The translations under genes were made by a program, and so were the position numbers. A DNA stretch of 64,000 nt from a virus. The DNA is taken from IMG/VR virus record IMGVR_UViG_3300036715_003906, positions 1 through 64,000 of that record; one strand, 5' to 3'. Below the pieces are notes generated by a model. It did no database searches. It was not told the origin of the DNA and worked only from the letters and a program-made list of their open reading frames with translations. Every line of letters begins with the position of its first letter. The first letter of the stretch is position 1. Below, piece after piece: positions 2,929 to 45,681 of the stretch.

Positions 2929-2957
2929 TTGCTTCTCGCCCTCCACGCGCGTAGTAC
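2929..2957 (+). promoter_or_regulatory. Class I promoter preceding an AGG codon
   Basis: TTGCTT (2929-2934), 17 bases, TAGTAC (2952-2957), CGCC, then AGG at 2962 where other copies have ATG. GAAAGAGTGAC lies upstream at 2910-2920. Confidence 0.65.
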
Positions 2958-2961
2958 CGCC

Positions 2962-3276
2962 AGGGCCACGCAAACCGACCCCAAGGGCATCCCTCACGAC
3001 TACGACGCGGAGTACTTCAAGACCGCGAAGCGACCCACCGAAGCCCTCCAGGTGAAGGTGGGGGACATCGTGGAGTGGACCAAATACTTCCTCAAGAGCA
3101 CGGGCCACGGGCCCACCCATCCCGCCTGGCGTCTCCAGGGTCGGGTCGAGAGCCTCTGCGACGAGGGCGCTTTCAAGGGCTGGCCCCGGGTCCTCTGGGC
3201 CGGCCGCGACGAGGCGAACCTCGTCTGCCCCGTCACCCTCTGTTTCCCCGGCGCGAACCTGCGCCGCCTGGAGTAA
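2962..3276 (+). CDS. Unknown protein, apparent AGG start
   Basis: A 104-codon frame beginning exactly at an AGG four bases after a promoter, where other members of the promoter family have ATG. Reading AGG as Met gives M-ATQTDPKGIPHDYDAEYFK, a sensible N-terminus; the first other in-frame start is far inside. A formal TTG start at 2929 exists only within the promoter. The protein has a VKVGDIVEWTKYF strand (about 35-47), reminiscent of small SH3-like barrels, and a Trp-rich centre. No family is recognised. A T-to-G change, an AGG start, or a sequencing artefact are all possible. Confidence 0.55.
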   Translation, partial: RATQTDPKGIPHDYDAEYFKTAKRPTEALQVKVGDIVEWTKYFLKSTGHGPTHPAWRLQGRVESLCDEGAFKGWPRVLWAGRDEANLVCPVTLCFPGANLRRLE

Positions 3277-3337
3277 CCCTGCCCGTGCCCGTTCGGCGAC
3301 TCGTGAGCGCCTGCTCGACTTCGTTTTCCCCGAACGA

Positions 3338-3499
3338 GTGGCGCCCTCGCCGACCCCGTTCCCGGAGTTCCCCGAGCCCCGGGGGATTCGGCCGGGGGAG
3401 CTGATCGTGTTCGTGTCGCCCGACCGACGGAAGGCGCCCACCACGGAGTTCCGCATCGACTTCCGCGTGGAGTTCAGCAGGGAGTTTACGACGGGCTGA
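3338..3499 (+). CDS. Short protein, possibly the 3' part of a broken gene
   Basis: A 53-residue frame from a GTG. The coding style (PEFPEPRGIRPGELIVFV, then alternating charged strands) is more natural than either other frame. In-frame sense codons continue upstream to about 3277 (RERLLDFVFPERV) without a start, and a GTG at about 3287 (MPVRRL) leads into them only if one base is inserted. This may therefore be the end of a roughly 70-residue frameshifted gene. Function is unknown. Confidence 0.35.
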   Translation: MAPSPTPFPEFPEPRGIRPGELIVFVSPDRRKAPTTEFRIDFRVEFSREFTTG

Positions 3500-3531
3500 A
3501 CGACGACGAGTGATAAAGATCCGGGGGGCTT

Positions 3532-3560
3532 TTGATTCCCGACCAGCTCCCGCGTAGTAG
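3532..3560 (+). promoter_or_regulatory. Class I promoter preceding an AGG codon
   Basis: TTGATT (3532-3537), 17 bases, TAGTAG (3555-3560), CCAC, then AGG at 3565. Confidence 0.65.
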
Positions 3561-3564
3561 CCAC

Positions 3565-3837
3565 AGGACCCCCCTGAACGCCTCCCTCGGGCAGCAGCAC
3601 GCGATGGACTTCCTCACCGGCCCGTTGCCGTTGCCCCCCATCTCCGAGGATACCTGCACCCTCACCTTTTGGGCGAGTCACGCCATCGGGGCGTGCCGGG
3701 CAGACCTGACCCTGGAGTCTCCCGGGGAGGATTGTAAATTCTGCCTGATGGCCTACCTTTCGGCCTACCAGGCCACCTGCGCGACTTTCTACCAGATGTC
3801 CTGGCAGATGTTTGATTCCGGACGTCCCCCCGCGTAG
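3565..3837 (+). CDS. Unknown Cys-containing protein, apparent AGG start
   Basis: The frame opens at the AGG four bases after a promoter and gives M-TPLNASLGQQHAMDFL if AGG is read as Met; the first ATG in frame is at 3604. The 90-residue product has Cys residues spaced C-x14-C ... CKFC in a helix-rich segment ending YQMSWQMF. The stop codon TAG is itself the start of the TAGTAC box of the next promoter, so the last ten codons are made of promoter DNA. No family is recognised. Confidence 0.55.
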   Translation, partial: RTPLNASLGQQHAMDFLTGPLPLPPISEDTCTLTFWASHAIGACRADLTLESPGEDCKFCLMAYLSAYQATCATFYQMSWQMFDSGRPPA

Positions 3838-3840
3838 TAC
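3812..3840 (+). promoter_or_regulatory. Class I leaderless promoter
   Basis: TTGATT (3812-3817), 17 bases, TAGTAC (3835-3840), CCCC, ATG at 3845. It lies wholly inside the 3' end of the preceding gene. Confidence 0.75.
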
Positions 3841-3844
3841 CCCC

Positions 3845-4135
3845 ATGCGCCTGACCCGCTACCAGATTCCCAAAGCCCCGTTCTACATCCTCGGCTGGGC
3901 CGCGGACCCCAGCGCGGTCTACCGCACGAGCCGCTACATCGTCCCCGCGGCTTCGGCCGCGGAGGCAGAGAAGCTCAAGGGGGAGGTCGAGGCGGCCCTC
4001 GGGACCCACAAGGGCTCGGTCATTGTCTCGATCGAGACCGAGAAGCCCGAACTGCGCAAGGGCGTCTGGTACGCCCTGGGGATGCCCCCCGTCTTCCGCT
4101 TAGCGGTCTCGCATGGTGTACGGGAGGCCCCATGA
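3845..4135 (+). CDS. Unknown 96-residue protein
   Basis: Start set by the promoter ending four bases upstream. The product has a YQIPKAPFYILGW N-terminus, a central Ala/Glu-rich helix (ASAAEAEKLKGEVEAALG) and a following strand (GSVIVSIET). It overlaps the HNH gene by ATGA. It may act as a small regulator or nuclease partner, but nothing proves that. Confidence 0.6.
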   Translation: MRLTRYQIPKAPFYILGWAADPSAVYRTSRYIVPAASAAEAEKLKGEVEAALGTHKGSVIVSIETEKPELRKGVWYALGMPPVFRLAVSHGVREAP

Positions 4136-4635
4136 AAGAGACATGGCGCCCCATCCCGGGCATCCCGGGCTACGAAGCCAGCGACCGTGGTCGCGTGCGG
4201 TCCTGGGTCAAACGGCAGGGGGTCCGGCGAGACAGGCCCCTCCTCCGCAAGCCCGTCGAGAACAAGCAGCGAGGCTGCTACCAGCTCATGAACTTCTCGA
4301 CCCCCCGCGGCGTGGTGAGGCGCTACGTCCACCATGTCGTCCTCCGGGCCTTCGGTAAACCGGGCAGGAGGGGGCAAGAGGTCCGACACCTCGACGGCAA
4401 CAACCGCAACAACCGCCTCGACAACCTGAAATGGGGGACGCACCGGGTCAACATGCGCGACCAGGTCGCCCACGGGACCCACACGAAGGGCCACCGGAAC
4501 GGCAACGCCAAGCTCACCCCCCGGCAGGTAGCCGCCATCCGCCGGAGCCCGGCGACGGGGCGCTCTCTGGCCGAGGAGTACGGCGTCCACCCCTCGACCA
4601 TCGCCCGGGTAAAGACGGGGCAGCGGTATGTCTAA
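4132..4635 (+). CDS. HNH homing endonuclease with NUMOD4 domain
   Basis: A 167-residue protein with the classic free-standing homing nuclease order. A NUMOD4 motif lies at the N-terminus (WRPIPGIPGYEASDRGRVRS, 4-23). The HNH_3 core is around 66-110 (HHVVLRAFG, then HLDGNNRNNRLDNLKWGT with the catalytic Asn and His). A C-terminal helix-turn-helix (LAEEYGVHPSTIARVKTG) provides target specificity. Such genes spread between phages by cutting at the insertion site. It is followed without a gap by the Dam gene (8-base overlap), so it may have been inserted beside the methylase. Confidence 0.9.
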   Translation: MKETWRPIPGIPGYEASDRGRVRSWVKRQGVRRDRPLLRKPVENKQRGCYQLMNFSTPRGVVRRYVHHVVLRAFGKPGRRGQEVRHLDGNNRNNRLDNLKWGTHRVNMRDQVAHGTHTKGHRNGNAKLTPRQVAAIRRSPATGRSLAEEYGVHPSTIARVKTGQRYV

Positions 4636-5479
4636 GCCCCTCTTCAAATGGGCCGGCGGCAAGACCCGGCTCCTGCCCCACCTGCTCGCGATCCTGCCCG
4701 AGCGGGTCCATGCCTACTACGAGCCCTTCCTCGGGGGCGCGGCCGTGTTCTTCGCCCTCCAGCGGGAAGGTCGGTTCGAGCGCGCCCACCTCTCCGACAA
4801 GAACCCGGTGCTCACGAGCTTTTACAGCGTCATCCGGGGCGCCCCCGCGATGTTCTCGTCCCGGCTCGCCGCCCTCCTGCCCGCCTACCAGGAGAACCCC
4901 GAGGCGACCTTCCTCGCCTGGCGGGAGCGGTTCAACCGCAGGGACACGGACGCCATCACGCAGGCCGCCCTCTTCCTGGCCCTCAACAAGTCCTGCTTCA
5001 ATGGGCTCTACCGGGTCAACCGCTACGGACGCTTCAATGTCCCCTGGGGCAAGGAGCCCGTCCTGTCCCTCCCGACGGCGGAGGAAGTCGAGGCGGCCGG
5101 CCGGGCCCTCCTCGACGTGGGGATCGGGAACCTGGACTTCGAGGCGGCCACCAAGGACGCGGCCCCCGGCTCCCTCGTCTACCTCGACCCGCCCTACGTC
5201 CCCGCCAGCGACACGGCAGACTTCGTGGGCTACGCGGCCGGGGGCTTCGGTCTCGACGAGCACAAGAGGGTCGCCCGGGTCGCCCGGGAGCTTGCCCACC
5301 GGGGGGTGCAGGTCGTCGCGTCCAACGCCGACGTCCCCCTGGTCCGTGAGCTGTACGAGGGCTTCACCTTCACCCCCCTCTCTGTCCAGCGCTCAATCAG
5401 CGCCCGGGCCGGGAGCCGCGTCACCGTCGGGGAGGTCATCCTCACGAGCTACCCCACGAAGTGCGCCCGCGCGGTGTAG
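4628..5479 (+). CDS. DNA adenine N6-methyltransferase, Dam/D12 class
   Basis: A 283-residue alpha-class N6-adenine methylase. The AdoMet-binding motif I FKWAGGKTR is at 6-14, ending in the usual PHL segment. The second FxG element EPFLGGAAV is at 32-40 and the catalytic DPPY at 187-190. Target recognition lies between. Length matches T4 Dam and DpnM (about 260-285). It probably methylates GATC-like sites to protect phage DNA from restriction, although specificity cannot be read from the sequence. The C-terminus ends in CARAV, with its stop codon inside GGTGTAG. Confidence 0.93.
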   Translation: MSKPLFKWAGGKTRLLPHLLAILPERVHAYYEPFLGGAAVFFALQREGRFERAHLSDKNPVLTSFYSVIRGAPAMFSSRLAALLPAYQENPEATFLAWRERFNRRDTDAITQAALFLALNKSCFNGLYRVNRYGRFNVPWGKEPVLSLPTAEEVEAAGRALLDVGIGNLDFEAATKDAAPGSLVYLDPPYVPASDTADFVGYAAGGFGLDEHKRVARVARELAHRGVQVVASNADVPLVRELYEGFTFTPLSVQRSISARAGSRVTVGEVILTSYPTKCARAV

Positions 5480-5518
5480 CCGGGGGGGGGCAGGGGACAA
5501 TCCACGCTCACCTGCGCT

Positions 5519-5881
5519 ATGAGCGGGCTCGCCATCGAGCCCGGCTGCCAGGTCAGGTTCTACTTCCTGACCCAGAACATCTACGGCAACGACCTCGGCC
5601 CCGTCACCTACGGGGCCTGGGCTCCCCGGTCCCTCCCTTTTCGGGTCCGCTACCGGGGCTACGGGGACATCGAGGCGCCCGAGCCCGAGGATGAACGGAT
5701 CGCCAAGGTCGCGGCGGAGTGCTTTGACCTCGACATCCTCTCCCGGGGCTGGGGGGAGAACACGGTTCACGACGTGCCGACCCGCAAGGGCAGGATCCTG
5801 CCCCAGCTCGTCGAGGCTGCCTGGAACGCCTCCAGGTTCACGAGTTTGAGCACGGCCCGCTGCGCCGCTGGCCCCCCGTGA
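5519..5881 (+). CDS. Unknown 120-residue protein
   Basis: Begins at an ATG 37 bases after the Dam stop with a plausible ACAATC -10 about 22 bases upstream; no strong SD. N-terminal half is strand-rich (CQVRFYFLTQ, PFRVRYRGYGD), then an acidic helix (DERIAKVAAECFDL). The last 20 codons look less natural and overlap the next gene by GTGA. No family is recognised. Confidence 0.55.
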   Translation: MSGLAIEPGCQVRFYFLTQNIYGNDLGPVTYGAWAPRSLPFRVRYRGYGDIEAPEPEDERIAKVAAECFDLDILSRGWGENTVHDVPTRKGRILPQLVEAAWNASRFTSLSTARCAAGPP

Positions 5882-6675
5882 TCGTGCCGAAGGGTGTCCC
5901 GACCCTGGCCCGCCTCCACAAGCACCTTGCCCCCCACGCGGCCGAATACGGGGGGCTCGGGGAGTCCCCGGGCTACCTGCTCCGCCGGGAGGGCTACGGC
6001 CACTACAGCGTCTCCTGGGCGGGCGGGGAGGGCGGGGAGGACGGCGCGGATAGGGAGCACCTCGCCCGCTTCCTGGCGGCGCTCCGCTTCGAGTACGATG
6101 TCGAGCCCGAGCAGACCGGCCCGGACTCGGGCAAGCTCCATGTGGGGCCCCGGCAGGGCATCTCGGCGCACCTGCCGCCGATCCGCTCCCCCTTCCTGTC
6201 CGTGTCCTTCGCCCTCGTCCGGGAGGACATCTGGCAGGCGCTCACGACGGGGCCCACCTACCTCGGGGTGACCATGAACGACTTCCTGAACGACGTGCGG
6301 ACCTTCGCCCGCGCGATCCGGGAGACGGGCCCGGGCGCGGTCCCCTACTACCGCGATTCCTTCGCCTGGACCGGCCCGGCGTCCCAGGTTTACAGCCACG
6401 ACACGGTCGACAGGGCCGTCGGGCTGGCGACGCACTTCCACCGACTCTGCCTGAGCACCCCCGAGGCCGAGGAGGAAGGGCTCCTCCGGGTCGCGGCCGA
6501 GACCGCCCTCCTCTGGCGCGGGTTCCTGTCCGCTCGCCGCCTGTGGCCCCCCAGCTCCGCGGTCGCGGCCCGCGGGTCCGGCCAGCGGCTCGTCGAGTTC
6601 GACTACCTCGACCGCATCCACCGGGTCGCGGGGGCCAGGCGGGATGCCGAGGTCAAGGTCAGGGTGCAGCCGTGA
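5878..6675 (+). CDS. Unknown 265-residue protein
   Basis: GTG start overlapping the previous stop (GTGA). Mixed alpha/beta protein. The N-terminal 60 residues are rich in Gly/His/Tyr. The central part (IWQALTTGPTYLGVTMNDFLNDVRTFARAI) is helical, and the C-terminal half contains HDTVDRAVGLATHFHRLCL. No catalytic motif is evident. It sits in a four-gene plus-strand run with 4-base overlaps, so it is probably co-translated with the small genes at 6672 and 6839. Confidence 0.6.
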   Translation: MIVPKGVPTLARLHKHLAPHAAEYGGLGESPGYLLRREGYGHYSVSWAGGEGGEDGADREHLARFLAALRFEYDVEPEQTGPDSGKLHVGPRQGISAHLPPIRSPFLSVSFALVREDIWQALTTGPTYLGVTMNDFLNDVRTFARAIRETGPGAVPYYRDSFAWTGPASQVYSHDTVDRAVGLATHFHRLCLSTPEAEEEGLLRVAAETALLWRGFLSARRLWPPSSAVAARGSGQRLVEFDYLDRIHRVAGARRDAEVKVRVQP

Positions 6676-6842
6676 TCACCTTCCGCGCGAGGTATCACCA
6701 GGACTTCCAGGGTGTGATCTTCGACAGGGGCCAGGTCGTCTGGGTCGCCGGAGCCGTGGAAGCCGTCTTCACCGCGGACACCTTCCTGGATGCTCGCCAG
6801 AGGGTCCTCCGCGGGATGGAACGGATCTGGGGTGATCGATGA
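6672..6842 (+). CDS. Small unknown protein
   Basis: A 56-residue product from a GTG overlapping the upstream stop as GTGA. Sequence ITFRARYHQDF...VVWVAGAVEAVF suggests a small strand-rich fold with a C-terminal amphipathic helix (DARQRVLRGMERIWG). A 4-base overlap with the next gene supports expression as a cluster. Confidence 0.5.
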   Translation: MITFRARYHQDFQGVIFDRGQVVWVAGAVEAVFTADTFLDARQRVLRGMERIWGDR

Positions 6843-7033
6843 GCATGGCCCCCAACAGCCCCGACGGCCGCCGCCTGGTCGTCAGGATCCCCGCCGGGGA
6901 CGGGCTCGTGGACGGGCCGAGCACGAACGGCCCGGGCTGGACCTGCACCGTGCCCCAGATCACCGTCCGGCCCAGCATCGCTCAGCCCGGCTACCACGGG
7001 GGGCTCACGGAGGGGGTCCTGCTCGACGCCTGA
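6839..7033 (+). CDS. Small unknown protein, last gene of the plus-strand run
   Basis: A 64-residue product from an ATG overlapping the previous stop as ATGA. It is Gly/Pro-rich with no predicted membrane segment or zinc motif. Followed by a hairpin before the convergent minus-strand block. Confidence 0.5.
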   Translation: MSMAPNSPDGRRLVVRIPAGDGLVDGPSTNGPGWTCTVPQITVRPSIAQPGYHGGLTEGVLLDA

Positions 7034-7044
7034 CGAAAGGGTGT

Positions 7045-7071
7045 CAGAGGGGGTCCCGGGGGGGGACTCTG
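7045..7071. terminator. GC-rich hairpin between convergent genes
   Basis: CAGA...GTCCC-GGGG-GGGAC-TCTG can fold, with an unpaired G-run in the left arm. It lies between convergent stops at 7033 and 7084, where a bidirectional terminator would be expected. There is no U-tract, so the call is weak. Confidence 0.35.
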
Positions 7072-7083
7072 GCGGGTCGATGT

Positions 7084-9264
7084 TCAAGAACAGGACCCCC
7101 CACGCGATCGTCCGCCAGACGCACGGAAGCGGGCGAGGAGGCTCGCCATGATGTTCCGCGTCCCGAGCTTGGCAAAGAGCCGGTCAAAGATCGGGGCGAT
7201 GTCCCTCTCGAACCGCGCGTCGTCGATGTACACGTCCTGCTCGTAGGTGAGCCAGGTGAGCCAGGGGTTCACGATGCCCGCCTTGGACAGCTTCGTGTAG
7301 ACGTATTGCTCACACATGCGAGCCCAGACCTCGGCCGCGCTCTGGTAGTAGAAGAGCTTGCGATCGTCCCCGCCTGCGTTCTCCCGGTAGACCCGCTCGG
7401 CCTCCTTGACCAGCTCGGGCGGGAACTGGGACTTGTACCTCTGGGCGTCCGTCCAGCCTGCATCCTTGGCGTCGTAGTAGGGGTGGTCCGTGGGCAGGTC
7501 GTAGACGCTCATCCCCGTCAGGTTCTTGACCGCCTGGGCCATGCTGTCGGCGTGGGCATTGGTCAGCTTGTCCTCCCACCGGGCATAGTCGGGCGTGTTC
7601 GTCACGGCCGCCATGAGGTCGAAGGCTTCGGGGAGCATCGTATGCAGGGCGTCCTGCCGCTTGTTGTACGTACCCTCGACGTAGCTCTCGGCGAAATACT
7701 CCGCCGAAGCTCGCCCGAAGATGTCCCCGGGACCTCCCGAGAACGGGTACTTGCTCGTCTCGCCCTTCTCCTCGTTCATCCTCGTGTCGAGCTTGAACGC
7801 GATCAGGTCCTCGAAATAGTGGCTCAGCTCGTGGGCAAGCACGCCTTCGTACTCGTCGCCGAAGGTCACCCGCGGCTGCCACTCCCGCTTGTCGTCCCAG
7901 GCGAAGTAGTGTGCCTTGGCCATGACGTTCGACTTGCCTCCGAACCGGAAGGCCAGCTTCTTCTTGTGCTTGCCGCAGAAGCCCTTGCCGAAGATCCCCT
8001 CCAGGTCCGTGATGGCCCGGGAGACGCGCCCGAGGAGGACCTCGCTCTCTTCCGGCGGCATCCCGTCGGGCAGCTCGACCGCACCGGTGTCGTGCGCCGC
8101 CCGAAATTCCTCCGTCTTCATGGGCTTGAAGTAGAGGGGTACGAGCGGCACGCCCTCCTTGATGGCCTTGTTCTTCTGGAGGGAGTCGAAGACCGGCTTG
8201 AGGTCCTCGTTGAGCGCCCTGCTCACGATCCCCTTGTCCGAGGCTTCCCCGATGATCCGCTGGACGGTCTCCAGCGTCTTCGCCTTACGGAGAAGGGTCA
8301 CGAACTTCCCGGCGTCGCGTGGGAGGGGCGCCTTGTCCTCTTTCCAGTTGTCCCTCTTCCCGGGCGAGAGCCGCAGGCTTTGTTGGTGCTTCGCCGAGGA
8401 GATGAACGACTTGATAGCCGCCTCGACGACGAACTGCGTCCCGCCGTCGACATCCATCTTCGCTTCCCGCTTGAGCACGTCCTCCAGGGGCTCCCGCTCG
8501 CCCTTCTGGGACTCGAGGATGCCCCTGTTGACCCCGGTCTCCCGCAGGACCTTACGGAGCGCGCGGCTGGCGTTCTCGCACATCGCTCGCTTCTCCTCCG
8601 GGCTCTTGCCCGAGGTGCCGGCAGCCTCGAACTGGGCATGGATGTCGGCGAGGGTCTTGCGGACACCGGCCTTCTCCTCCTCGGTCATGTCGAACCATGC
8701 GCCGGGGTTCTCGTCCTCGTGGGGCGTCAGCGACAAGCTCTTGGAAGATCCCTTCCCGAGCTGGATGACCTTGCGGAGAAGGGTCTTCATCTGCGTCGGG
8801 ATGACCGACAACTTCAGGATCATCTGGAAGAAGGCTGTGAAGTCCTCCCCGTAGGTTGCCTCGTCCCCCTCGGCGATGCCCCTGGTTTCCCGGAGGAGCC
8901 GCATCACGGCGGGCGACAGCTCGTTGCGGGGCAAGTGACGGAAGCCCCGGATGACCTTGACCGCTTGGGCGAGGGCTTGCCGGTCCTGACGAGCCGTGAG
9001 CTTGGAAACAGCCCGGAGCGCGTGGGCTGAGGGTTCGAGCCCCGTCCCGTACCTCCCCTCGTCCATTCCGTCCGCCAGCGCGCCGCACGCCGTCGTGAAG
9101 GTGTCGTGGTACTGCCGTCGAAGGGTCAAGAACTTCTTGATCTCCTTCTCGTCGTAGAATGGATTTTGGACGATGACGTTCTGGGCGACGAGGAGCGCGA
9201 TGCCACCCATGATAGCCTCCACTTCCTGGACGGACGTGTCGCGCTCGTAGTTGTAGTCTGCCAT
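7084..9264 (-). CDS. Large zinc-metallopeptidase-like protein, possibly virion-associated
   Basis: A 726-residue protein. HELSHYFED near residue 476 is the HExxH zinc site of a gluzincin-type peptidase. The downstream GASxEYFAESY-like segment (ASAEYFAESYVEG, about 530) supplies a plausible third ligand Glu. The N-terminal 450 residues are mainly charged helices. The last residues (MASLLARFRAS) resemble the RLAARY motif found at the ends of several neighbours. The gene heads a minus-strand block containing topoisomerase IB and a second HExxH protein. It may be an injected peptidase. An AGGAGGG sits immediately before the ATG, too close for an ideal SD. Confidence 0.65.
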   Translation of the reverse strand: MADYNYERDTSVQEVEAIMGGIALLVAQNVIVQNPFYDEKEIKKFLTLRRQYHDTFTTACGALADGMDEGRYGTGLEPSAHALRAVSKLTARQDRQALAQAVKVIRGFRHLPRNELSPAVMRLLRETRGIAEGDEATYGEDFTAFFQMILKLSVIPTQMKTLLRKVIQLGKGSSKSLSLTPHEDENPGAWFDMTEEEKAGVRKTLADIHAQFEAAGTSGKSPEEKRAMCENASRALRKVLRETGVNRGILESQKGEREPLEDVLKREAKMDVDGGTQFVVEAAIKSFISSAKHQQSLRLSPGKRDNWKEDKAPLPRDAGKFVTLLRKAKTLETVQRIIGEASDKGIVSRALNEDLKPVFDSLQKNKAIKEGVPLVPLYFKPMKTEEFRAAHDTGAVELPDGMPPEESEVLLGRVSRAITDLEGIFGKGFCGKHKKKLAFRFGGKSNVMAKAHYFAWDDKREWQPRVTFGDEYEGVLAHELSHYFEDLIAFKLDTRMNEEKGETSKYPFSGGPGDIFGRASAEYFAESYVEGTYNKRQDALHTMLPEAFDLMAAVTNTPDYARWEDKLTNAHADSMAQAVKNLTGMSVYDLPTDHPYYDAKDAGWTDAQRYKSQFPPELVKEAERVYRENAGGDDRKLFYYQSAAEVWARMCEQYVYTKLSKAGIVNPWLTWLTYEQDVYIDDARFERDIAPIFDRLFAKLGTRNIMASLLARFRASGGRSRGGSCS

Positions 9265-9313
9265 CCCTCCTGCGAGGTCACAGAAGCATTAGGCTCATTT
9301 GTGGGGGAGGGGT

Positions 9314-9342
9314 TTTATTCTCGGGGGGCCCCCGCGTAGTAG
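9314..9342 (+). promoter_or_regulatory. Class I leaderless promoter
   Basis: TTTATT (9314-9319), 17 bases, TAGTAG (9337-9342), CTCC, ATG at 9347. It is divergent from the peptidase gene at 9264. Confidence 0.65.
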
Positions 9343-9346
9343 CTCC

Positions 9347-9745
9347 ATGACCACCCTGACCCTCCGCCCCGCCAAGCTCGCCGACCTCGACAACGTCATC
9401 CCAGGCTTGGCCAACGTCTGGAAGCAGATCAAGGCCCAGTGCGGCACGAAGAAGCGCGTCCCCACCATCACCCTCGCCGACTACGCCGAGGCGATGTGCC
9501 CGAACGACGACTCCCTGTGCCGGCGCTTCGCCCTCGACCTCACGACGATGAATCTGAGCGCCGGGCTCCGCGTCTCGGCCGGGGAGTGGGCGGTCCATGC
9601 CAGCCCCAACCACGACGAAGGCGTCGAGGGCGTCGGCAACGGGCAGGCCCTCCTTGACTGCGAGTGGAACGATTTTCACGGCTTCTTCACCCTGCGCATC
9701 CAGGTGGCCCCCGGGGCCCTCCCGAAGCAGGTCACCCAGGGCTGA
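9347..9745 (+). CDS. Unknown 132-residue protein
   Basis: Start fixed by the promoter. N-terminal part reads like a small alpha/beta domain (TLRPAKLADLDNVIPGLANVW); it contains two Cys in CPNDDSLCRRF. C-terminal HGFFTLRIQVAPG is a strand. No family recognised. The stop is followed within a few bases by GGTGTAG and the next gene. Confidence 0.6.
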   Translation: MTTLTLRPAKLADLDNVIPGLANVWKQIKAQCGTKKRVPTITLADYAEAMCPNDDSLCRRFALDLTTMNLSAGLRVSAGEWAVHASPNHDEGVEGVGNGQALLDCEWNDFHGFFTLRIQVAPGALPKQVTQG

Positions 9746-9780
9746 ACCGGTGTAGGGGGGGAGGATGGAGAACAACAACC

Positions 9781-12097: not shown

Positions 12098-12653
12098 TCG
12101 TCGTCCTCCTCGTCATCCTCGCCGGCCAGGATGACGGGCTCCGCCTCCTCGGCCTTCTGCTTGTCGGGCGGCGGGTCGTGCCAGATCTTGAACAGGCCAT
12201 CTCCTTGTCCTGCTTCCGACCCTTGGGCACGGGCTCGATCACGACCGTGGGGTTGCCGTGCTTGTCCTCGCCAAATTGCCGAATAATCCCGTGGGGGTTC
12301 TTGTATTTTCCGTGAAGTACGGGATCGCCGGGGGTGAAGAACCCCGCGCTAAGTGCGCGGCTCAGCAGGCGCATCCCCCTCGGGGACGTGTGCCCCGTAA
12401 AGGGCCAAAATCTGTCGAGCCCAATGGACCTTGTCAACGACCCGTTGCCCAGAGGGTTGGCTTGGGTGGGGGTGAGGGCACCCGTCGATCGTGCATGTTC
12501 CTCGTCGGACACGTATACTTTCGGCTCGTTGCCGCTGGAGGAGATGAGGGCGGCACAGCCCTGAACGTCCAGCGGGTTGCTCGCAGCTTTCGGCTTTGCA
12601 CGTGCCCGAGTACAGGAATAAGAGAAGTACCGGGAGGCCAGGCGCTGGGCCAT
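12094..12653 (-). pseudogene. Unknown protein with RLASRY motif, single-base frameshift
   Basis: Starts MAQRLASRYFSY and contains a second copy-like stretch GMRLLSRALSAGFF (about residue 100). After PVPKGRKQDKEM the frame collapses into Arg/Ser-rich nonsense. The next frame continues naturally (GLFKIWHDPPPDKQ, then an acidic tail EDDEEDDE) to a TGA that overlaps the next ATG as ATGA, exactly like its neighbours. One G is missing from a likely GGG at about 12195-12200. Either the gene is broken or this is a sequencing error. Function is unknown; the IIRQFGEDKHGNPTVVIEP segment looks like a small barrel. Confidence 0.6.
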
Positions 12654-12780: not shown

Positions 12781-12784
12781 CGGC

Positions 12785-36252: not shown

Positions 36253-36314
36253 GGTCTTTGCTCTCCTGGGGGGGGTTATCTTCCCGATCGTAGAAACGGC
36301 TCGGGCGAGGGGTA

Positions 36315-37117: not shown

Positions 37118-37145
37118 GGTAACCGCCACCGCCCCCCCGCGCTAC

Positions 37146-40100
37146 TCACTCCAGGCTGTGGGCTCCGTTCGACCAGTTGCCCTGATTCAAGGCGAACATG
37201 AAGGGCTGGGGATCGACCCGGATGTTCAGGATCGGATCGATGAGGACCTCGCCCGAAGCCGTGATCACCCGAAGGAGGGCCCCGTCCTCCTTCTTGAACT
37301 CCGTGCAAAGGCCCGCAATGCGGGGGATGGCCCGCCGGGTCGTCTCCTTGAGACGTACCGTGAGCACCTGCCCCGCGGGGGGCGTGGGGGCGGGCGTGGG
37401 GGGCCGGGGGGCCGGGACCGGAGCGGGCTGGGGAGCCGGAGCCGGTGCGGGAGGAGGGGGCGGCGCCGCGGGGACGGGGTCGTCCGAGGGGGACTCCATG
37501 CTCAGGGTGTCCTCCCCCTCCCCCTCCTCCGCCACAGAGACGTTCCCAGGAGCCTCGGCCGGTGACGGAGCGGCCGGCACCTCTCCGTTGGGGTAGGGCT
37601 CCGTCAGGTCGTCCCGCCACTCGGGGCCCCATTTGTCCAGGGTCTGGCGGAGCCAGTCCGGCGGCTTGACGAAGAGGAAGGCCCCCGAATGGACCTCACC
37701 CGGCCCTGCTTTCTCGCGCTCGCCGGCCTTGCTTACCTTGGCCCGGCGGGCCGTGGTCTCCGCCCCCCAGTTGGACCCGACCAGGGGGTCGGTGACCAGG
37801 GGGACACCCCACTCGGGGGTCGTCATCCGGCCGAGCGACTCCATGGTCCAGGTGATGACCTCGATCGCGACCAGCAGGACCTCGGGCTTGATCTCGAAGA
37901 CCAGCTCGTCGTGGACCGTGAGCAGCATCCGCACGCTGTCCGACCCGTTCTTGAGCCAGCCCCGCTTCCAGCATTGCTTGTGGATGAGGACCATGGCGAT
38001 CTTCATGATGTCGGCGCCCGTCCCCTGGATCGGGTAGTTCGTCGAGTGCCGCTCACAGGCCGCTCGCGTCGCCTGGGCCGTCTCCTGGTCCAAGGGCTTC
38101 TTGCGCGTGAACCGATCGTGGTAGGCGTACTCCCCCTCCTTGATCGCGGCGTCGGGGATGGAGATCCACCGGCCAAAGGCCGTGTAGACGCCCTTGTCGA
38201 GCTTCACCCTGTCGTGCTTCCTCTTCACCCACTGGGCAAAGGTGGGCAGGGCCTTGTCGAAGGCGTCCTTCTTCCGGCGGGCTTCGAGCTTGTCACACCC
38301 CACCGCCCGCTGGACCGAGGCCGCACCGCCGCCGTAGACCAGAGCGAAGTTGGCCATCTTGCCCGCCTTCCGGTAGCCCTTCTTCTTCTCCTTGTCCTTC
38401 TCCGTGTCGTACCCGGGGAAGAAGGCGCGAGCCGTGATGGCGTGAAGGTCCCCCTCCCCTTCGGTGAACTCCTTGATCCAGACCTTCTCCCCCGACAGGT
38501 TGGTGACGACGCGAAGCTCCTCCCCCGCGTAGTCGCACTTCACCATGACGTAGCCCTCGCGGGCCACGAAGCAGGTGCGCAGGTTCGACGTGCCGGGGAT
38601 GCCGTGGATGGCCAGACCCCCGAAGCCTTGCTCCGGGTCACCCTGGGGGGCCGAGAAGCGACCCGTCGCCGCGCCGGTCTGCTTGAACTGGAACCGGAAC
38701 TCGTCGTTCGCGTCCCCGTTGTGCGCCATGGCAAGGAGGTAGGTCCCGATGAGCTTCTCCTGCTTCCGGTAGGCGATGATCCACTTGAGGGCCGGGGGCG
38801 CATTCTCCCCGAGCTTCGTGGCCAGCTCGTCGATCGTGACCTTGTCGGTCTTGTACTGCCCGCTCGCCTTGTTCCGCTCGGGCTTGGGGGAGATGTCGAG
38901 GCCCCGCGCATCAAAGAGGAAGGTGCCGAGCTGGGCGGGGCTGTTGGGCTCGAAGTTCGGGAAGCCCTTGCTCTCGGCCAGGGCGATGATCTGGCCCCTG
39001 ATCCGGTCGCGCTCCTCCTCCGCCTGGGCCAGTAGCTCCTTGGCCCGGGGCCGATCCACCTTGACTCGGTTCCGCTCCATGACCCGCTTGGCCTGGACCA
39101 CCTGCTTCTCGACCCGGTACATCCAGGCGTGCCTGCTGCCGGACGCCACCACCTGCGGAACCCCCTCGGGGTGAGCGCAGAGGAGCCGTGTGCAGATGGC
39201 ATCCGAGCAGGCGTAGTTCACGATGCTCGGCTCGTCCGGAGAGAGTGTCTCGAAGCGCGGAGCCCGACCCCGGGCAAAGAGCGCGTCGAACTTGATCATC
39301 TCGTAGGGGTGGCCCTCCGGGTCCCGCAGGTACTGCGGGGCCTTCTCCTTGAGCGACAACCGCTTGTCGTCCGAGTAGACCATGTAGAACGCGAGCTGGC
39401 CGTCCTCGAACGAATCGGGGTGCCACCAGTCGATCCCCGTGATCGGGTAGAGCATCTCCTGGTCGAAGGCCGCGTGCCAGAAGTCGATCACCACCCTGGG
39501 CGGCGTCTTGTGCCTCTTGAAGCTGAGGATGTCCGCTTCCTCCGGGAACGGCTCCGGCTGGGCCGCCCGGCAGAGCTTCGCGATGGCAGCGAGCACCCGG
39601 TCCACCGGCTTGATGTTGAGGTCGGGGCCCCCGTCCTCGGGCCGGTGACGGATCGGGATGTAGTACCCGTCCTTTGCATCCCCGTAGGCGATGCAGAAGC
39701 CCACCACCTGATGCACCGTACGGAGGGCACCGGTGACCGGGTCGGGGTAGATGCGCGTGTCGAGACCCTCGGACTCGATGTCCAGGGCGCACCGGCCATT
39801 CGCGATGGCGCGACCAATAAGGTCCTCCACCTCCTCGGGCGTCTTGAGGAGGTGGAAGGTGTGGTGCTTCATCCACGGCTTGGTCATGAGCGGAACGTGG
39901 CGCTCCGCCGCGACGCCCATGATCGCCATGGAAGCCAGAGGGTCGTCCGCGTCCGTGTCCCCGTCGAGGCGCCGTTGCCGGGGCGGCAGGGCCACCATGT
40001 CCTCGGGACGAACGAGGTCGTCCACCGTTACGTTGCGTCCGAAGTCCTCGGGTCGAAGGAAGCTATCGGCCGTGAGTTCGACGGCGGGCGGCGGAGCCTG

Positions 40101-40262
40101 TCCCGGCGGGGCGCCGGGGAGGGGCAACACCCCCTGCGGAGAGAGGGGTAGGACGCCGTCCGCCTCATCGACGAGGGCCTCGTCCCGGGCGATGTTTTCG
40201 TCCTCGTCCTCGACTTCGATCCGGTAGGTGATGTCGTCATCCTCGTCCTCAAGCTGCACCAT
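37146..40262 (-). CDS. polA: Family A DNA polymerase with 3'-5' exonuclease
   Basis: A 1038-residue polymerase. N-terminal acidic region (1-90). Exo I DIESEGLD near 160 and Exo III YACSD near 340 give proofreading. Palm motif A DYAGEELR near 577, motif B KMANFALVYGG near 633 and motif C VHDELVFE near 782 are intact; there is no 5'-3' exonuclease domain. After the polymerase core a Pro-rich linker (about 905-965) leads to a 60-residue strand-rich tail (QVLTVRLKETTRRAIPRI ... EVLIDPILNIRV). ATG at 40262 overlaps the preceding gene by 14 bases. Confidence 0.93.
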   Translation of the reverse strand: MVQLEDEDDDITYRIEVEDEDENIARDEALVDEADGVLPLSPQGVLPLPGAPPGQAPPPAVELTADSFLRPEDFGRNVTVDDLVRPEDMVALPPRQRRLDGDTDADDPLASMAIMGVAAERHVPLMTKPWMKHHTFHLLKTPEEVEDLIGRAIANGRCALDIESEGLDTRIYPDPVTGALRTVHQVVGFCIAYGDAKDGYYIPIRHRPEDGGPDLNIKPVDRVLAAIAKLCRAAQPEPFPEEADILSFKRHKTPPRVVIDFWHAAFDQEMLYPITGIDWWHPDSFEDGQLAFYMVYSDDKRLSLKEKAPQYLRDPEGHPYEMIKFDALFARGRAPRFETLSPDEPSIVNYACSDAICTRLLCAHPEGVPQVVASGSRHAWMYRVEKQVVQAKRVMERNRVKVDRPRAKELLAQAEEERDRIRGQIIALAESKGFPNFEPNSPAQLGTFLFDARGLDISPKPERNKASGQYKTDKVTIDELATKLGENAPPALKWIIAYRKQEKLIGTYLLAMAHNGDANDEFRFQFKQTGAATGRFSAPQGDPEQGFGGLAIHGIPGTSNLRTCFVAREGYVMVKCDYAGEELRVVTNLSGEKVWIKEFTEGEGDLHAITARAFFPGYDTEKDKEKKKGYRKAGKMANFALVYGGGAASVQRAVGCDKLEARRKKDAFDKALPTFAQWVKRKHDRVKLDKGVYTAFGRWISIPDAAIKEGEYAYHDRFTRKKPLDQETAQATRAACERHSTNYPIQGTGADIMKIAMVLIHKQCWKRGWLKNGSDSVRMLLTVHDELVFEIKPEVLLVAIEVITWTMESLGRMTTPEWGVPLVTDPLVGSNWGAETTARRAKVSKAGEREKAGPGEVHSGAFLFVKPPDWLRQTLDKWGPEWRDDLTEPYPNGEVPAAPSPAEAPGNVSVAEEGEGEDTLSMESPSDDPVPAAPPPPPAPAPAPQPAPVPAPRPPTPAPTPPAGQVLTVRLKETTRRAIPRIAGLCTEFKKEDGALLRVITASGEVLIDPILNIRVDPQPFMFALNQGNWSNGAHSLE

Positions 40263-40695
40263 CGCTGTCCTCCTTGACCACGAGCACGTATACACCGCTC
40301 CGCCAGTACGACAGGAGCAAGTATCCCAGGAAAAGTGCTGCTTCGCCCTCCTGCCCGCCGGGCCGGTAGCAGGTGGGCATCTTGCTCGACAGGGGCGTAC
40401 AGCGCCCCTTGTCGCGGAGCACGCACCCCTCTTCCTCGAGGCACCGCTGGTCGAGCAGGGGGAGCTTGCGGACCACGAGCCTCGGGGCAAGCCCCAGCTT
40501 GTCGAAAAGGGGCCGGGTCCATCCCTTGAGGGCCGCGTCCAGCTCCCCCGCCGTGAGCACGGGGACGAGCTGCCCCATGTCCGAGCCCTGGAGGGGGGCC
40601 CACTCGGGCTCCCATGTCCCCGCCTTGTCCGCGTGGATGAGAAAGGCGTCGATGACGCCCATCTCCCGCACCTTGATCTTCAGCTCGCGCGGCAC
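40249..40695 (-). CDS. Unknown Cys-containing protein
   Basis: A 148-residue product. Strand (LKIKVREMGVIDAFLIHADK), helical middle, then CLEEEGCVLRDKGRC ... TCYRPGG with four Cys that may bind a metal, and a hydrophobic end (ALFLGYLLLSYWRSGVYVLVV). Part of the replication operon between primase and polymerase; could be a replication accessory. No family recognised. Confidence 0.55.
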   Translation of the reverse strand: MPRELKIKVREMGVIDAFLIHADKAGTWEPEWAPLQGSDMGQLVPVLTAGELDAALKGWTRPLFDKLGLAPRLVVRKLPLLDQRCLEEEGCVLRDKGRCTPLSSKMPTCYRPGGQEGEAALFLGYLLLSYWRSGVYVLVVKEDSDGAA

Positions 40696-41300
40696 TTCTC
40701 GCCGATCTTGCGGAGCACCCTTTCGAGCGCGGCCTTGGCTTCGGCGGGGGACGTCGTTCCCGCGTTCATCCGGGCCCGGAGCCGATCGAGGACCACGCCG
40801 AGCGTGAGGTAGCCCTTCCTGTCGAAGGACTCCCGCCCCACCACCAGGCGCCGCTCACAGGCCGCGAGGAGCGCGGTAAGCCGGGCCTCTTCCTCCTCCC
40901 CCGGCTTGTCCCAGACCTCGTAGCCCTCCATGGAAGGGATTTCGGGCGGGCAAAGGTTGTAGGCCCGCTCCATGGCCCGCAGGACAGCCGTGAACTTGGC
41001 CGCCTGCATCCCCTGGAACTCGCGCCAGACCCCCACCACGTCCCACCTCTTCTGGCAGACGAAGCAGTAGACCCCCGCGCCATGGTCGTCGTCCCCGTCC
41101 GCGTGGTACTTGGCCGCCATGCTCTTGCTGTTCGGGTGGAAGGGGCAAAAGATCTGCTCCGACCGGCTTCCGCCGTACCGCAAGGGGACGCCATTCTCCG
41201 ACAGGACATCGGCGACGCGGACCGCCTCCCGTATCGCGGCGGTCCGCTCCTTGATCCAGTCGGCGATCGGGCCCTCGAAGGTGCGCTTGTCCGCCGTCAC
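40680..41300 (-). CDS. DnaG-type primase zinc-binding domain protein
   Basis: A 206-residue product. FCPFHPNSKSMAAKYH (C52, H55) and VYCFVCQKRWDVVGVW (C79, C82) form the CHC2 zinc finger of bacterial and T7-type primases. The catalytic TOPRIM domain is absent; the rest is helical, including a conserved AERYNL region. It is probably a stand-alone primase zinc domain or template-recognition subunit that cooperates with a separate TOPRIM protein. Start ATG overlaps the helicase gene by ATGA. Confidence 0.75.
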   Translation of the reverse strand: MTADKRTFEGPIADWIKERTAAIREAVRVADVLSENGVPLRYGGSRSEQIFCPFHPNSKSMAAKYHADGDDDHGAGVYCFVCQKRWDVVGVWREFQGMQAAKFTAVLRAMERAYNLCPPEIPSMEGYEVWDKPGEEEEARLTALLAACERRLVVGRESFDRKGYLTLGVVLDRLRARMNAGTTSPAEAKAALERVLRKIGEKCRAS

Positions 41301-42775
41301 AGCCCCGCCATCGCCTCCATGACCGCCCGGTGCTCCTCGACGCTCATCCCGCCCCCCTGGGCCCCCTGGAAGATGTCGAGGTTGAAGATGCGCCGGGGCG
41401 CGAAGTCCACCTTGGCCGTGAAGGGCGCGAAGGTCGGGTTGTCCCGGTTCTTCAGGTTGCAGAAGACCGTGGTGCCCGCGGTCCGGTGGTCGTCGTTCAG
41501 GTACGTGGTCGTGATCGTGTCCGCCGACTTCTCGACCTCGTTCGCGTAGGTGAGGGCGCTGATCTTGTACCGGCCCTCGTTCTTGTCGGCGTCCTCCTTG
41601 CCGGCCCGGTTCATCTGGAAGAGCATCAGCACGGGGACCTTCTCCCCGTGGTTGAAGTGCAGGGCGAGCTTCTTCGCGTCCCGGACGATGCTGTTCATCT
41701 GGATCACGTACTCCTTGCCCGAGCCCTTGCGGGGCTCGATGAGCAGGCCGTGGTCGAGGATGACGAGCCCCACCTCCATCTGCCGGTGGATCAGCTCCGT
41801 TTCGAGGCGGATGTCCTGGATCGACACCTCCCGGTCAGGGCACCGGATCTCGACCTCGCAGTAGTTCGGGTTGTTGCAGAAGTCGTCGATGACGAGCTTG
41901 TAGAACTCCTCCTCCGCGGCCGTCAGCTCCCCGTCCCGGATCTTCCGGTAGTCGAGGGGCGCGTACCCCATCTTCTGGAACTTGAGGTTCGCCGAGTGGA
42001 TCGCGTAGAAGGTCCGGCGCACCTGCTCGTAGGGCATCTCCAGCGACCAGTAGACCGTGTGGGCCTTGTACCGGGTCGCCAGGTTGTAGGCCCAGTTGCA
42101 GGCGAAGCTGGTCTTTAGCTCGCCCGGGAAGGCCGCGTGGACCCACAGCTCCCCCTTCTTGGCGCCCTTGCAGCACTTGTCGATCTCGTTGATCCCGGTG
42201 AAGCGGCCCCAGACCTTGTCCTTGTTCGACTTGGCGTTCGTGTACTCGTCCCACATCGCCTGGCCGTCGTGACGGATCGTGCCGCTCGTCCGGGACGTGT
42301 AGTCCGATTGGACGAGTTCGAGGGACTTCTGGGCGAAGTGCATGACCCCGTCCCGGAGTCCCTGCTTGCGGATCTTGTCCCGGCCCTCCCTGAACTCGAC
42401 GCCCTTCGTGATGATGTCCCGGGCTTCGGTGAGCAGGGCGATGGCCTTGTGCTTGTTCTGGTCGTCCCGGATCTGGCTGAGCAGGTGGACGAAGGTCGTG
42501 CGGATGTAGAACGGCGCCGCCGCGATGTCCTTGACCCGCTCGACCGCCTCGATGTCCCCCGTCCCTCCCACGGTCTCGAAGTAGTCGATGACCGATTGCG
42601 AGGAGGGCATCTCCAGCCGGGCCTGGAAATACTCCAGGCAAAAGTTGTAGATCCGCTGCTCCTCGGGAAGCTGCCAGTCCACGTTGGCGCTGATCAGCTT
42701 CCCGAAGTTCTGGATCAGGTTGTCGGGCGAAACCTGTCCGTCGAAATCGATCACGCTCCGCAGTAGCCGCTTCAT
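41297..42775 (-). CDS. DnaB-like replicative helicase
   Basis: A 492-residue protein. The N-terminal 160 residues are helical, as in the primase-interaction domain of DnaB. Walker A is altered: HAAFPGELKTSFA (213-225) keeps Lys221-Thr222 but has Leu in place of the usual Gly. VGLVILDHGL is the Walker B strand, and an RYKISALTYANEVEKSADTI region includes the arginine-finger-side elements of the RecA core. It would unwind the fork and load behind the loader-like protein. ATG overlaps the next gene's end. Confidence 0.85.
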   Translation of the reverse strand: MKRLLRSVIDFDGQVSPDNLIQNFGKLISANVDWQLPEEQRIYNFCLEYFQARLEMPSSQSVIDYFETVGGTGDIEAVERVKDIAAAPFYIRTTFVHLLSQIRDDQNKHKAIALLTEARDIITKGVEFREGRDKIRKQGLRDGVMHFAQKSLELVQSDYTSRTSGTIRHDGQAMWDEYTNAKSNKDKVWGRFTGINEIDKCCKGAKKGELWVHAAFPGELKTSFACNWAYNLATRYKAHTVYWSLEMPYEQVRRTFYAIHSANLKFQKMGYAPLDYRKIRDGELTAAEEEFYKLVIDDFCNNPNYCEVEIRCPDREVSIQDIRLETELIHRQMEVGLVILDHGLLIEPRKGSGKEYVIQMNSIVRDAKKLALHFNHGEKVPVLMLFQMNRAGKEDADKNEGRYKISALTYANEVEKSADTITTTYLNDDHRTAGTTVFCNLKNRDNPTFAPFTAKVDFAPRRIFNLDIFQGAQGGGMSVEEHRAVMEAMAGL

Positions 42776-43737
42776 CGAGACCTCTTGGGATAGGAACCAC
42801 GCTTGCCGTTGGTCTTGGGCCCCGCCGGGCCGCTGAGGGGCCCGCTGAGGGGCCCCCGGGTCTCCTCCCGGTCCCGCTCACGTTCACGCTCTTTCCACGG
42901 GCTCTGCCGGGGGATGGAGGGCTTCTCCCTCGGGGGCAGAAGGGGCATCTCGTCCGTGTTCATCGAGACTTCCTCCGGCTCGTCCTCCTCGGCCTCGGGG
43001 GCTTCGGGGGCCGTCTCGGGCACGGGCTTCGGGGGAACCTTCGCGGTGGGCTTCGCGGGGGGCTTTGGAGCCGCGGAGTCCACGGGGACGGCCTTGGGCT
43101 TCCTCATGGGCATGATCTCGCCTTCCTTGAGCCCCAGCCGCTCGAAGTTGCGCGAGATGTAGTCGGAGACCTCGTCGCTGAACGCCGGGTGGTCTCCCAT
43201 GAAGAGCGCGTCGGGGTCCTCGATGATCCAGGTGGGGAGGAGGCGCGAGGCCCGCATCATGAGGGTCTCCTTGAGGATGCCCGGCATCGCCCGGTTCTTG
43301 TACCCGAGAAACCCGAGCCGCAGGATGAGGAGGTCGACCCCCCCCACGACCAGGTCCGACAGGGAGTTGAAGGTCTCCTGTTCGTCGCGGGTCTTCTTCG
43401 AGCGCGCCCGGTAATCCTCGGACCCCACCCACACGGTCTTGAGCCGCTCGTCGGTGACGACGCGGAACGAGAACTGGGGGCCCTTGAACGCGAGAGCCCA
43501 CTTGAGGTGCGAGAGCACCACGGGCCAGGTCCCCGTCAGAAAGAGGTCCTCGTTCGTCCGGTCCACCTTCCTGGGGAGGTAGAGGGGGCTCGCCTTGATC
43601 GTGTCTGCCCCCGCGATCTCGGCCCCCATGTGGATCTTCAGGGCCCGGGCGTAGGCGCAGATGCACTGCCGCACCGTGCTGTCGTCGTCGGGGAGCGGGC
43701 GGAAGCCGGCTCCCTTGCAAATCGTGCATTCAGCCAT
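42772..43737 (-). CDS. DnaC/IstB-like protein without Walker A
   Basis: A 321-residue product. N-terminal CTICKGAGF ... RQCICAYA is a four-Cys zinc knuckle. The middle contains VDLLILRLGFLGYKNRAMPG and PTWIIEDPDAL, the Walker B-like and sensor-like strands of DnaC/IstB ATPases, but no P-loop is seen. The last 120 residues are Pro/Glu/Arg-rich low complexity. Position next to the helicase suggests a loader or adaptor. It overlaps the SNF2 gene by eight bases. Confidence 0.6.
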   Translation of the reverse strand: MAECTICKGAGFRPLPDDDSTVRQCICAYARALKIHMGAEIAGADTIKASPLYLPRKVDRTNEDLFLTGTWPVVLSHLKWALAFKGPQFSFRVVTDERLKTVWVGSEDYRARSKKTRDEQETFNSLSDLVVGGVDLLILRLGFLGYKNRAMPGILKETLMMRASRLLPTWIIEDPDALFMGDHPAFSDEVSDYISRNFERLGLKEGEIMPMRKPKAVPVDSAAPKPPAKPTAKVPPKPVPETAPEAPEAEEDEPEEVSMNTDEMPLLPPREKPSIPRQSPWKERERERDREETRGPLSGPLSGPAGPKTNGKRGSYPKRSR

Positions 43738-45475
43738 GTTTCTTGGCCCCCTCTTGCATCTTCCGCACGAGGTCCTTGGTCGAGCTGCCCTTGGTGTCGA
43801 AGGTGAGGGCCCCCACGGCCGACTCCCCGAGTACCTGGTCGATGATCGCCTTCTTCCCTTCGAGGGTTTCGAGCACGTAGTCGTCGATCGTCTTGCGCTC
43901 CTTGGCCGTCTCCCCCGGTAGCTCGCTCACCAGGTGGTAGACGAGGATACGCGTGTGCTTCGACCCGAGCCGCTGGGGCCGGCCGAGCGTCTGGACGTAG
44001 TTCCCCCACGACCAGGGGGCGTCGAAGAACAGGAGGGCCGAGGCGGCTTGCAGGTTGATCGCCTCCGACCCCGCGTCGGTGATGAAGATCACCTTCGTCG
44101 GGCTGTTCTCGTCCTGGAAGGCGTCCTGAGCCGCCTTGCGTTGCTGGACCTTCTCCTTGCCCGTGATGCGGACCGAGGTGATCCCGCCCGCCGTCAGGAT
44201 GGCCTGGAGCCGGCCCACCAGCGACTCGAACCGCGTGTAGACAACGACCTTCTCGCCGTCGAGTTCCTCGGTCAAGATGTCCATCAGGAGCCGCTCCTTC
44301 GACCCGAGCTTGTCGACCTTGATCGCCTCCTCCGCAAAGGCCGAGCTGACCTCGTCCGCCTCCTTGTACTTGAGCAGCGTGAGGGAGTTGACGACGAGCT
44401 GGCAGTAGATGAGCGCCGTGAGCGCCTTGGTCTCCTCGTAGTCCTTGACCGTCCCGTCCCCGAGTTCGAGGACCCCCGACACCGCCTCCCGGTACTTCGC
44501 CACCTCCGCCGGCAGGAGCGTCGTCGTCATCCGCCGCGTCGTGAGCACCGGTAGCTCGTCCGACACCACGGTCTTCGGGCGGCCGAGGAAATAAGGGTCG
44601 ATCATCTGCCGGAAAAGGCTGAGGTTCCGGTAGCCCACGACCAGGGGGATGCGCCGGCCCCCGGGCATCACCTGCTCACGCACCACGCAGAAGGAGTCGT
44701 GAAATGCCTTCTTGGTCGCGAAGAGCCAGGGCACGACCGCCTTGTAGATCGAGAAACCCTCCACCAGATTGTTCTTCAGGAGCGTCGCCGTCAGGCCGTA
44801 GCAGCGGTTCGATCGGGCCGAGAGCGCCTGGACCACCGTCCACGTCTTCGTCGCCGTGTTCTTGAACGCCGTGGCCTCGTCGAAGATGGTCAGGACGCTG
44901 GTCATCTCCCGCGTGATCCCGTCGAGGAGCCCGGGGATGAAGATCGGCTTCTCGCCCCGCTTCGTGGCCTTGATCATCCCGCTGCCCGCGGTCCAGTCCC
45001 GCAGGAGCTGGCTGTACGTCATCAGCAGGAGCGGCTTGTCCGGCCCCGCGTAGGCTTTCCAGGCGTGGTAGATGGTCTTCCGCTCGTCCGGACCGCCCCC
45101 GACCACGAACACCTTGACCCCCTTCGTAAACCGCAGGATCTCGCTCTCCCACTGGAGCTGCGGGGCCACGGGCGAGACCACGATGGGCCGCGTCCCGGGC
45201 TCCCGCTGCCAGAGGTAGCAAAGGGCCGCCACGGCCTGGAGGGTCTTGCCCAGGCCCGTCCCGTCGCCGAGGATCATCCGAGGCATCCGCATCAGGTGGT
45301 AGACCCCGATCGTCTGATAGTACCTGAGCCGGAGCGGGACCGGCCCCGTCGGCGTGTCCAGCGTGTCCCGCAAATGAGGGGTGGGTTTCAGGGCCACCGT
45401 TTTCGAGTCCCGGATGCGTAGGAGGTCGTGGTAGGTGGCGGTGATCTCGGCTTGGGCCGCGGCCGGAAGGGGCAT
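43730..45475 (-). CDS. SNF2/DEAD-type DNA helicase
   Basis: A 581-residue protein with Walker A GDGTGLGKT (70-78), motif II IFDEAT (197-202), motif III GLTATLLKN and the second RecA lobe with VVYTRFESLVGRL and LLFFDAPWSWGNYVQTLGR. The DEAT rather than DEAH is seen in phage SNF2 proteins. It likely remodels or displaces proteins during replication or transcription. ATG at 45475 follows GGTGTAA by ten bases; a GTG three codons upstream is an alternative. Confidence 0.85.
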   Translation of the reverse strand: MPLPAAAQAEITATYHDLLRIRDSKTVALKPTPHLRDTLDTPTGPVPLRLRYYQTIGVYHLMRMPRMILGDGTGLGKTLQAVAALCYLWQREPGTRPIVVSPVAPQLQWESEILRFTKGVKVFVVGGGPDERKTIYHAWKAYAGPDKPLLLMTYSQLLRDWTAGSGMIKATKRGEKPIFIPGLLDGITREMTSVLTIFDEATAFKNTATKTWTVVQALSARSNRCYGLTATLLKNNLVEGFSIYKAVVPWLFATKKAFHDSFCVVREQVMPGGRRIPLVVGYRNLSLFRQMIDPYFLGRPKTVVSDELPVLTTRRMTTTLLPAEVAKYREAVSGVLELGDGTVKDYEETKALTALIYCQLVVNSLTLLKYKEADEVSSAFAEEAIKVDKLGSKERLLMDILTEELDGEKVVVYTRFESLVGRLQAILTAGGITSVRITGKEKVQQRKAAQDAFQDENSPTKVIFITDAGSEAINLQAASALLFFDAPWSWGNYVQTLGRPQRLGSKHTRILVYHLVSELPGETAKERKTIDDYVLETLEGKKAIIDQVLGESAVGALTFDTKGSSTKDLVRKMQEGAKKHG

Positions 45476-45519
45476 GGCGGGCACTTTACACCGGACCGGA
45501 GGAATCGACCGGCCGCCTT

Positions 45520-45548
45520 TTGATTCTCGTCCGAGCCCCGCGTAGTAC
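45520..45548 (+). promoter_or_regulatory. Class I promoter preceding an AGG codon
   Basis: TTGATT (45520-45525), 17 bases, TAGTAC (45543-45548), CCCC, then AGG at 45553. Confidence 0.65.
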
Positions 45549-45552
45549 CCCC

Positions 45553-45681
45553 AGGACCACGCTCCTCGTCACCCTGACGAGGCCCGAGCCCGACTACAGC
45601 GAGAGGGCCCGCGTCGAGGCCCCCCTCAGCTACGATCGGTTCAGGGCCATCGAGCAGGGTCGCGGGGACGGGAACTGCTGA
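45553..45681 (+). CDS. Small protein, apparent AGG start
   Basis: A 42-codon frame opening at the AGG four bases after a promoter. Reading it as Met gives M-TTLLVTLTRPEPDYSERAR, then SYDRFRAIEQG, a sensible small acidic/basic protein. Any other start would be shorter. The first three codons (AGG ACC ACG) differ by one base from ATG ACC ACG at 1625. Confidence 0.5.
   Translation, partial: RTTLLVTLTRPEPDYSERARVEAPLSYDRFRAIEQGRGDGNC

Follow-up and report, generated by a model that had tools for sequence, protein, structure and literature searches.

Introduction

Leaderless genes are known from lambda cI, from mycobacteria and from Deinococcus. In these genes, the -10 element is placed so that transcription should start at the start codon, and there is no Shine-Dalgarno sequence. 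The phage genes described here have the same layout. They differ from the known cases in that their promoter, TTTGATTC-N13-GCGTAGTA, is phage-specific, occurring only in this phage and in one related contig, and in that the transcription start is one that we infer. Binding of a leaderless mRNA depends on its AUG (PMC4965119). GUG, UUG and CUG are no replacement for AUG on such an mRNA, and a UAG start was not rescued even by a tRNA with the matching anticodon (review, PMC4611024). Elsewhere in bacteria, non-canonical starts do occur, such as the GTC codon described for Streptomyces sigR (PMC5472188). The genes studied here likewise have a codon other than ATG, GTG or TTG at the start position; however, cases of the kind described for sigR rest on translation evidence whereas the present codon, AGG, is known from sequence alone. 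Decaying accessory pseudogenes of phages are also comparable, having a mutated start, a promoter and most of the frame kept, and broken genes nearby. Here, in contrast, three genes carry an identical T-to-G change and as yet no other lesion.

The window analysed corresponds to the first 64 kb (64,000 nucleotides) of the 251,474-base phage record IMGVR_UViG_3300036715_003906, which has a G+C content of 68% and contains phage replication genes. A first-pass annotation had pointed to three genes of this window with AGG in place of ATG, and had offered as explanations the use of AGG as a leaderless start, a recent loss of the start codon, or miscalling of a modified nucleotide.

Results

The promoter family recurs across the phage record. 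A position-weight matrix in which the start triplet was left unscored was run over the whole 251-kb record with a threshold of at least 29 bits. Twenty-five strong copies were obtained, scoring 29-39 bits as compared to a maximum of ~12 bits in shuffled sequence. These copies are mostly found in two clusters, at 1-47 kb and 212-246 kb; examples in the window are the sites at 960, 1620, 3840, 9342, 12780 and 46783. At the start position, the triplet is ATG in 20 of the 25 copies, AGG in three and another triplet in two. The ATG lies exactly 5 bases behind GTAGTA in 19 copies and 6 bases behind it in one. This constant spacing suggests a leaderless layout of the genes, in which the first transcribed base would be the start-codon A or one adjacent to it. 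The two promoters with neither ATG nor AGG (234043 and 246161) show ACC and TCG at this position and have instead a downstream ATG with a Shine-Dalgarno sequence.

The three AGG triplets are located at 2962-2964, 3565-3567 and 45553-45555, each 5 bases past GTAGTA. The corresponding promoter copies, all on the plus strand, are at 2928-2956 (variant TTTGCTTC-N13-GCGTAGTA, 32.7 bits), 3531-3559 (38.8 bits) and 45519-45547 (38.8 bits). The open reading frames that follow, also on the plus strand, comprise 104 codons (2962-3276), 90 codons (3565-3837) and 42 codons (45553-45681). Candidate N-terminal peptides after Met would be ATQTDPK, TPLNASLGQQHA and TTLLVTLTR, respectively. The first canonical in-frame start downstream of the AGG is codon 31 in the 2962 frame (GTG, 3052) and codon 14 in the 3565 frame (ATG, 3604), and the 45553 frame contains no ATG, GTG or TTG at all; an alternative start giving nearly the same protein is absent from all three. 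The presence of AGG where ATG is expected was thus confirmed against the 20 ATG sister promoters. It had also been claimed that two of the three sites have no ATG or GTG nearby upstream. Upstream of the AGG, each of the three frames has a single canonical start codon, the TTG of the promoter's TTTTG box, 33 bases up. Since the sequence behind this TTG is non-coding, it was ruled out as a start. The possibility that AGG(A) serves as a 5′-end Shine-Dalgarno sequence was ruled out as well, as no suitably spaced start codon follows except a CTG at 3574.

A run of G residues is present in the spacer of 18 of the 20 ATG promoters, whereas all five non-ATG copies are without it (Fisher p = 0.0004, a comparison made after looking). 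When only the three AGG promoters, all of which lack it, are compared with the ATG promoters, the value is p = 0.006, again post hoc. The absence of the G-run suggests that the AGG promoters form a separate subclass or are themselves drifting. As it is absent, too, from the two leadered promoters (234043 and 246161), though the genes there look intact, loss of the G-run is not specific to decay. The TTTGCTTC variant was found at the 2962 gene and otherwise only at a frameshifted gene with its ATG at 46385.

The position at which coding begins was determined using a hidden Markov model built on codon usage and stops only, and therefore blind to start codons. Coding onset was placed at 3568 and 45556, that is at the codon right after the AGG, and at 2974 in the case of the 2962 gene. 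Over the 15 codons following the AGG, the coding scores were +5.3, +7.3 and +6.7 nats (2962, 3565 and 45553), similar to those at ATG sites; the same score was about -10 nats at the two leadered promoter sites. The codons after the AGGs (GCC ACG, ACC CCC and ACC ACG) resemble those behind the sister ATGs. The first-pass view that the open frame begins at the AGG, with codons like those of sister-gene starts, agrees with the start-blind onsets and with this resemblance. In general, AGG triplets are not sites of coding onset: the rate is 5.3 per thousand for AGG, below that of GTG or TTG and far below the 19 per thousand of ATG. Several other genes to which the model seemingly gave no start, such as that of the major head protein (149261), were set aside because a canonical start was found a few codons inside, reflecting overshoot of the boundary.

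We then considered that the frames might not start at AGG, the promoters giving rise to leadered transcripts for genes further downstream (45723; 3604; 3052 or 3305) and the AGG stretches being leader or former coding sequence. In agreement with this idea, the two promoter copies that precede leadered Shine-Dalgarno genes are likewise devoid of the G-run, and the 45723 gene has a well-spaced AGGAG. However, from the AGG to the first canonical start the coding score is +11.7 (2962), +4.3 (3565) and +12.1 nats (45553), whereas the remaining two forward frames over these stretches give strongly negative values of -8 to -38 nats (-27 and -38 at 45553). Moreover, a Shine-Dalgarno sequence is absent in front of both 3604 and 3052. 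Overall, we regard a leadered arrangement as rather unlikely.

The accuracy of the bases themselves was also examined. The record is a single metagenomic contig, with two of the AGG sites in the terminal 4 kb, which would be compatible with a sequencing or assembly error masking true ATG codons. However, the 22-mer GCGTAGTACCCCCA(T/G)GACCACG is found twice, with ATG in GCGTAGTACCCCCATGACCACG (1612-1633) and with AGG in GCGTAGTACCCCCAGGACCACG (45540-45561), and is otherwise identical. The first copy belongs to an intact sister gene of 65 codons (1591-1822, plus strand) having the family promoter and its ATG at 1625. Given that all other bases of the two 22-mers agree, a miscall caused by sequence context is improbable, and one depending on methylation was rejected on the same grounds. 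None of the 20 sister promoters shows a disturbed reading of the ATG either, so that the proposed miscalling of a modified nucleotide is unlikely. For errors of any kind to account for the AGGs, 3 of ~69 start-codon bases would have to carry the same wrong call, which implies a high error rate; the open frames of up to 7.5 kb show that the rate is low. An error at the three sites is accordingly quite unlikely.

If AGG were a working start on leaderless mRNAs, ensuring a deliberately low expression, it would break the AUG rule for these mRNAs, and every gene finder would miss such genes. In favor of this, coding begins exactly at the AGG in intact frames, the codon is identical at three sites, the codons that follow are like those after sister ATGs, and the phage has a divergent tRNA whose CCU anticodon would read AGG. 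This tRNA-like gene (207351-207422, minus strand, G000; L016 3351-3422; anticodon loop UUCCUAA) scores 28 bits, just below the Rfam cut-off of 29, and was overlooked by ARAGORN, which detected a tmRNA and about 33 tRNAs in the phage record. It also has an unusual T loop, UCCAACU. As G1 and C72 are paired and the anticodon stem, CUGGU/ACCGG, is without the three consecutive G-C pairs of initiators, it looks like an ordinary elongator arginine tRNA. No Met tRNA is in the ARAGORN listing of the phage record, no initiator-type tRNA was found in the record, and IF1 and IF3 genes were not found in the phage. In addition, among in-frame codons near coding onsets behind a Shine-Dalgarno sequence, ATG is enriched 4.0-fold and GTG 1.8-fold, and no enrichment was seen for AGG or ACG. 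A 5′-terminal AUG, reported in the literature to be needed and not to be replaced by other codons, would be carried by the mRNAs of the 20 ATG sisters and is missing from those of the three AGG genes. Finally, a proven pseudogene adjoins. A functional AGG start is therefore very improbable, and a still smaller chance is given to AGG being a deliberate low-efficiency start that a few early genes would use on their leaderless mRNAs, maybe aided by the CCU tRNA. This first-pass option is considered improbable, given the lack of AGG enrichment and of an initiator-type tRNA and the requirement for AUG.

The surroundings of the AGG genes were then inspected. Between the intact leaderless genes at 1625 and 3845, there are five coding segments whose 5′ ends are damaged or uncertain, at 1837, 2285, 2962 (AGG), 3305 and 3565 (AGG). 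The first (1837-2241, plus strand) is the C-terminal remnant of a DUF932 gene, matching only the final 98 of the 227 positions of Pfam DUF932 (130-227) and positions 233-333 of 355 of PHROG 1221. The second (2285-2911, plus strand) encodes a P-loop ATPase with homologues in KX853510 and in Caulobacter phages, among others. Its ACG codon, behind the good Shine-Dalgarno sequence AGAAGGA, aligns with Met1 of the Virus Rctr197k homologue; near 2800 it has an out-of-frame deletion of about a dozen of the homologues' codons, and coding changes frame at 2809. In the homologues (Virus Rctr197k; G006 and G007 from IMG/VR; Caulobacter and Brevundimonas phages), the gene is in one continuous frame. The ATPase gene is a pseudogene. 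It ends 50 bp ahead of the 2962 AGG. It is for this ACG gene only, and for none of the three AGG genes, that Met1 of a homologue was found at the position of the lost start. The segment at 3305-3493 (plus strand), delineated by the model, has no recognizable start.

Near the third AGG site, an intact gene behind AGGAG (45723-46346, plus strand) is followed by a promoter-family gene (46351-46755, plus strand) with ATG at 46385 and coding in another frame from about 46396, owing to a frameshift within its first codons. A further gene of the family, at 109487, is frameshifted after ~60 codons. At least five of 23 promoter-family genes thus carry lesions. In contrast, no second inactivating lesion is present within the three AGG genes, whose frames are intact with good codon usage.

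Relatives of the AGG genes proved scarce. For the three products, no informative match was obtained in Pfam, PHROGs or NCBIfam, and Rfam gave no match around 45553. Searches of IMG/VR with protein patterns found no close relative of two of the genes, the 42-residue product being too short for patterns. No close relatives were found by tblastn in phages and plasmids or in 16 related phage records, and a DNA pattern spanning the 45553 AGG revealed none. Of the three products, only that of the 2962 frame (P0001) gave a homologue, in LR745208, which has diverged too far for the start base to be settled from it.

Discussion

Our preferred explanation, to which we assign a probability of about 0.62, is a recent ATG-to-AGG start loss in small accessory phage genes. 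Among the options of the first-pass annotation it has the strongest support, since two of the AGG sites have broken genes as immediate neighbors and the third has them less than 1 kb away. Further points in its favor are the missing G-run of the AGG promoters and the TTTGCTTC variant shared by the 2962 gene and the frameshifted 46385 gene. According to this model, the start codon would have undergone a T-to-G change in three small accessory genes driven by the repeated phage promoter. The promoters would still be working, or at least have been retained. As an mRNA without a 5′-terminal AUG should not be translated efficiently, the AGG genes would be transcribed as leaderless but poorly translated mRNAs, and have probably been silenced recently, being in early decay. 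The promoter at 45519 may have been kept for the intact gene downstream at 45723, which it probably serves.

Three identical T-to-G changes with no second lesion are nevertheless somewhat uncomfortable for start loss. Under a uniform model, the probability of any identical triple among the seven loss substitutions is ~0.02, which counts against it, as does the share of first lesions expected at the start codon under random decay, ~5-10% by rough estimate. Since the three frames show no other damage and keep a good codon usage, the loss would have to be recent each time. Copying of AGG cassettes within the genome from a shared origin could explain the identical change, though the spacers are not clearly related. 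If start loss is correct, a strong repeated promoter reveals start-lost genes that annotation would miss or would start wrongly at the promoter TTG.

Other features of the record were observed. The tRNA array (roughly 30 genes) and the tmRNA (tag ANDNVALVALAA) are found at about 203213-211667 and 200303-200654, on the minus strand, and some tRNAs look damaged, for instance at 204853-204929 and 210611-210684. At 203525-203999 (minus strand), one protein is apparently split by a frameshift (..QMRYNLAVTL / EHEGQTLTLAEG..). Also in the window, an open frame on the minus strand (54777-62288) is very long, at 2503 codons.

In other phages, the promoter was found only in the 60-kb relative IMGVR_UViG_3300036715_004341, in two copies, both with ATG. 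The promoters appear to move as cassettes. The relative's promoter TTTGATTCCCGTCACCCCGCTGCGTAGTA (L049) is identical to the phage copy at 246132-246160 and has a different gene downstream.
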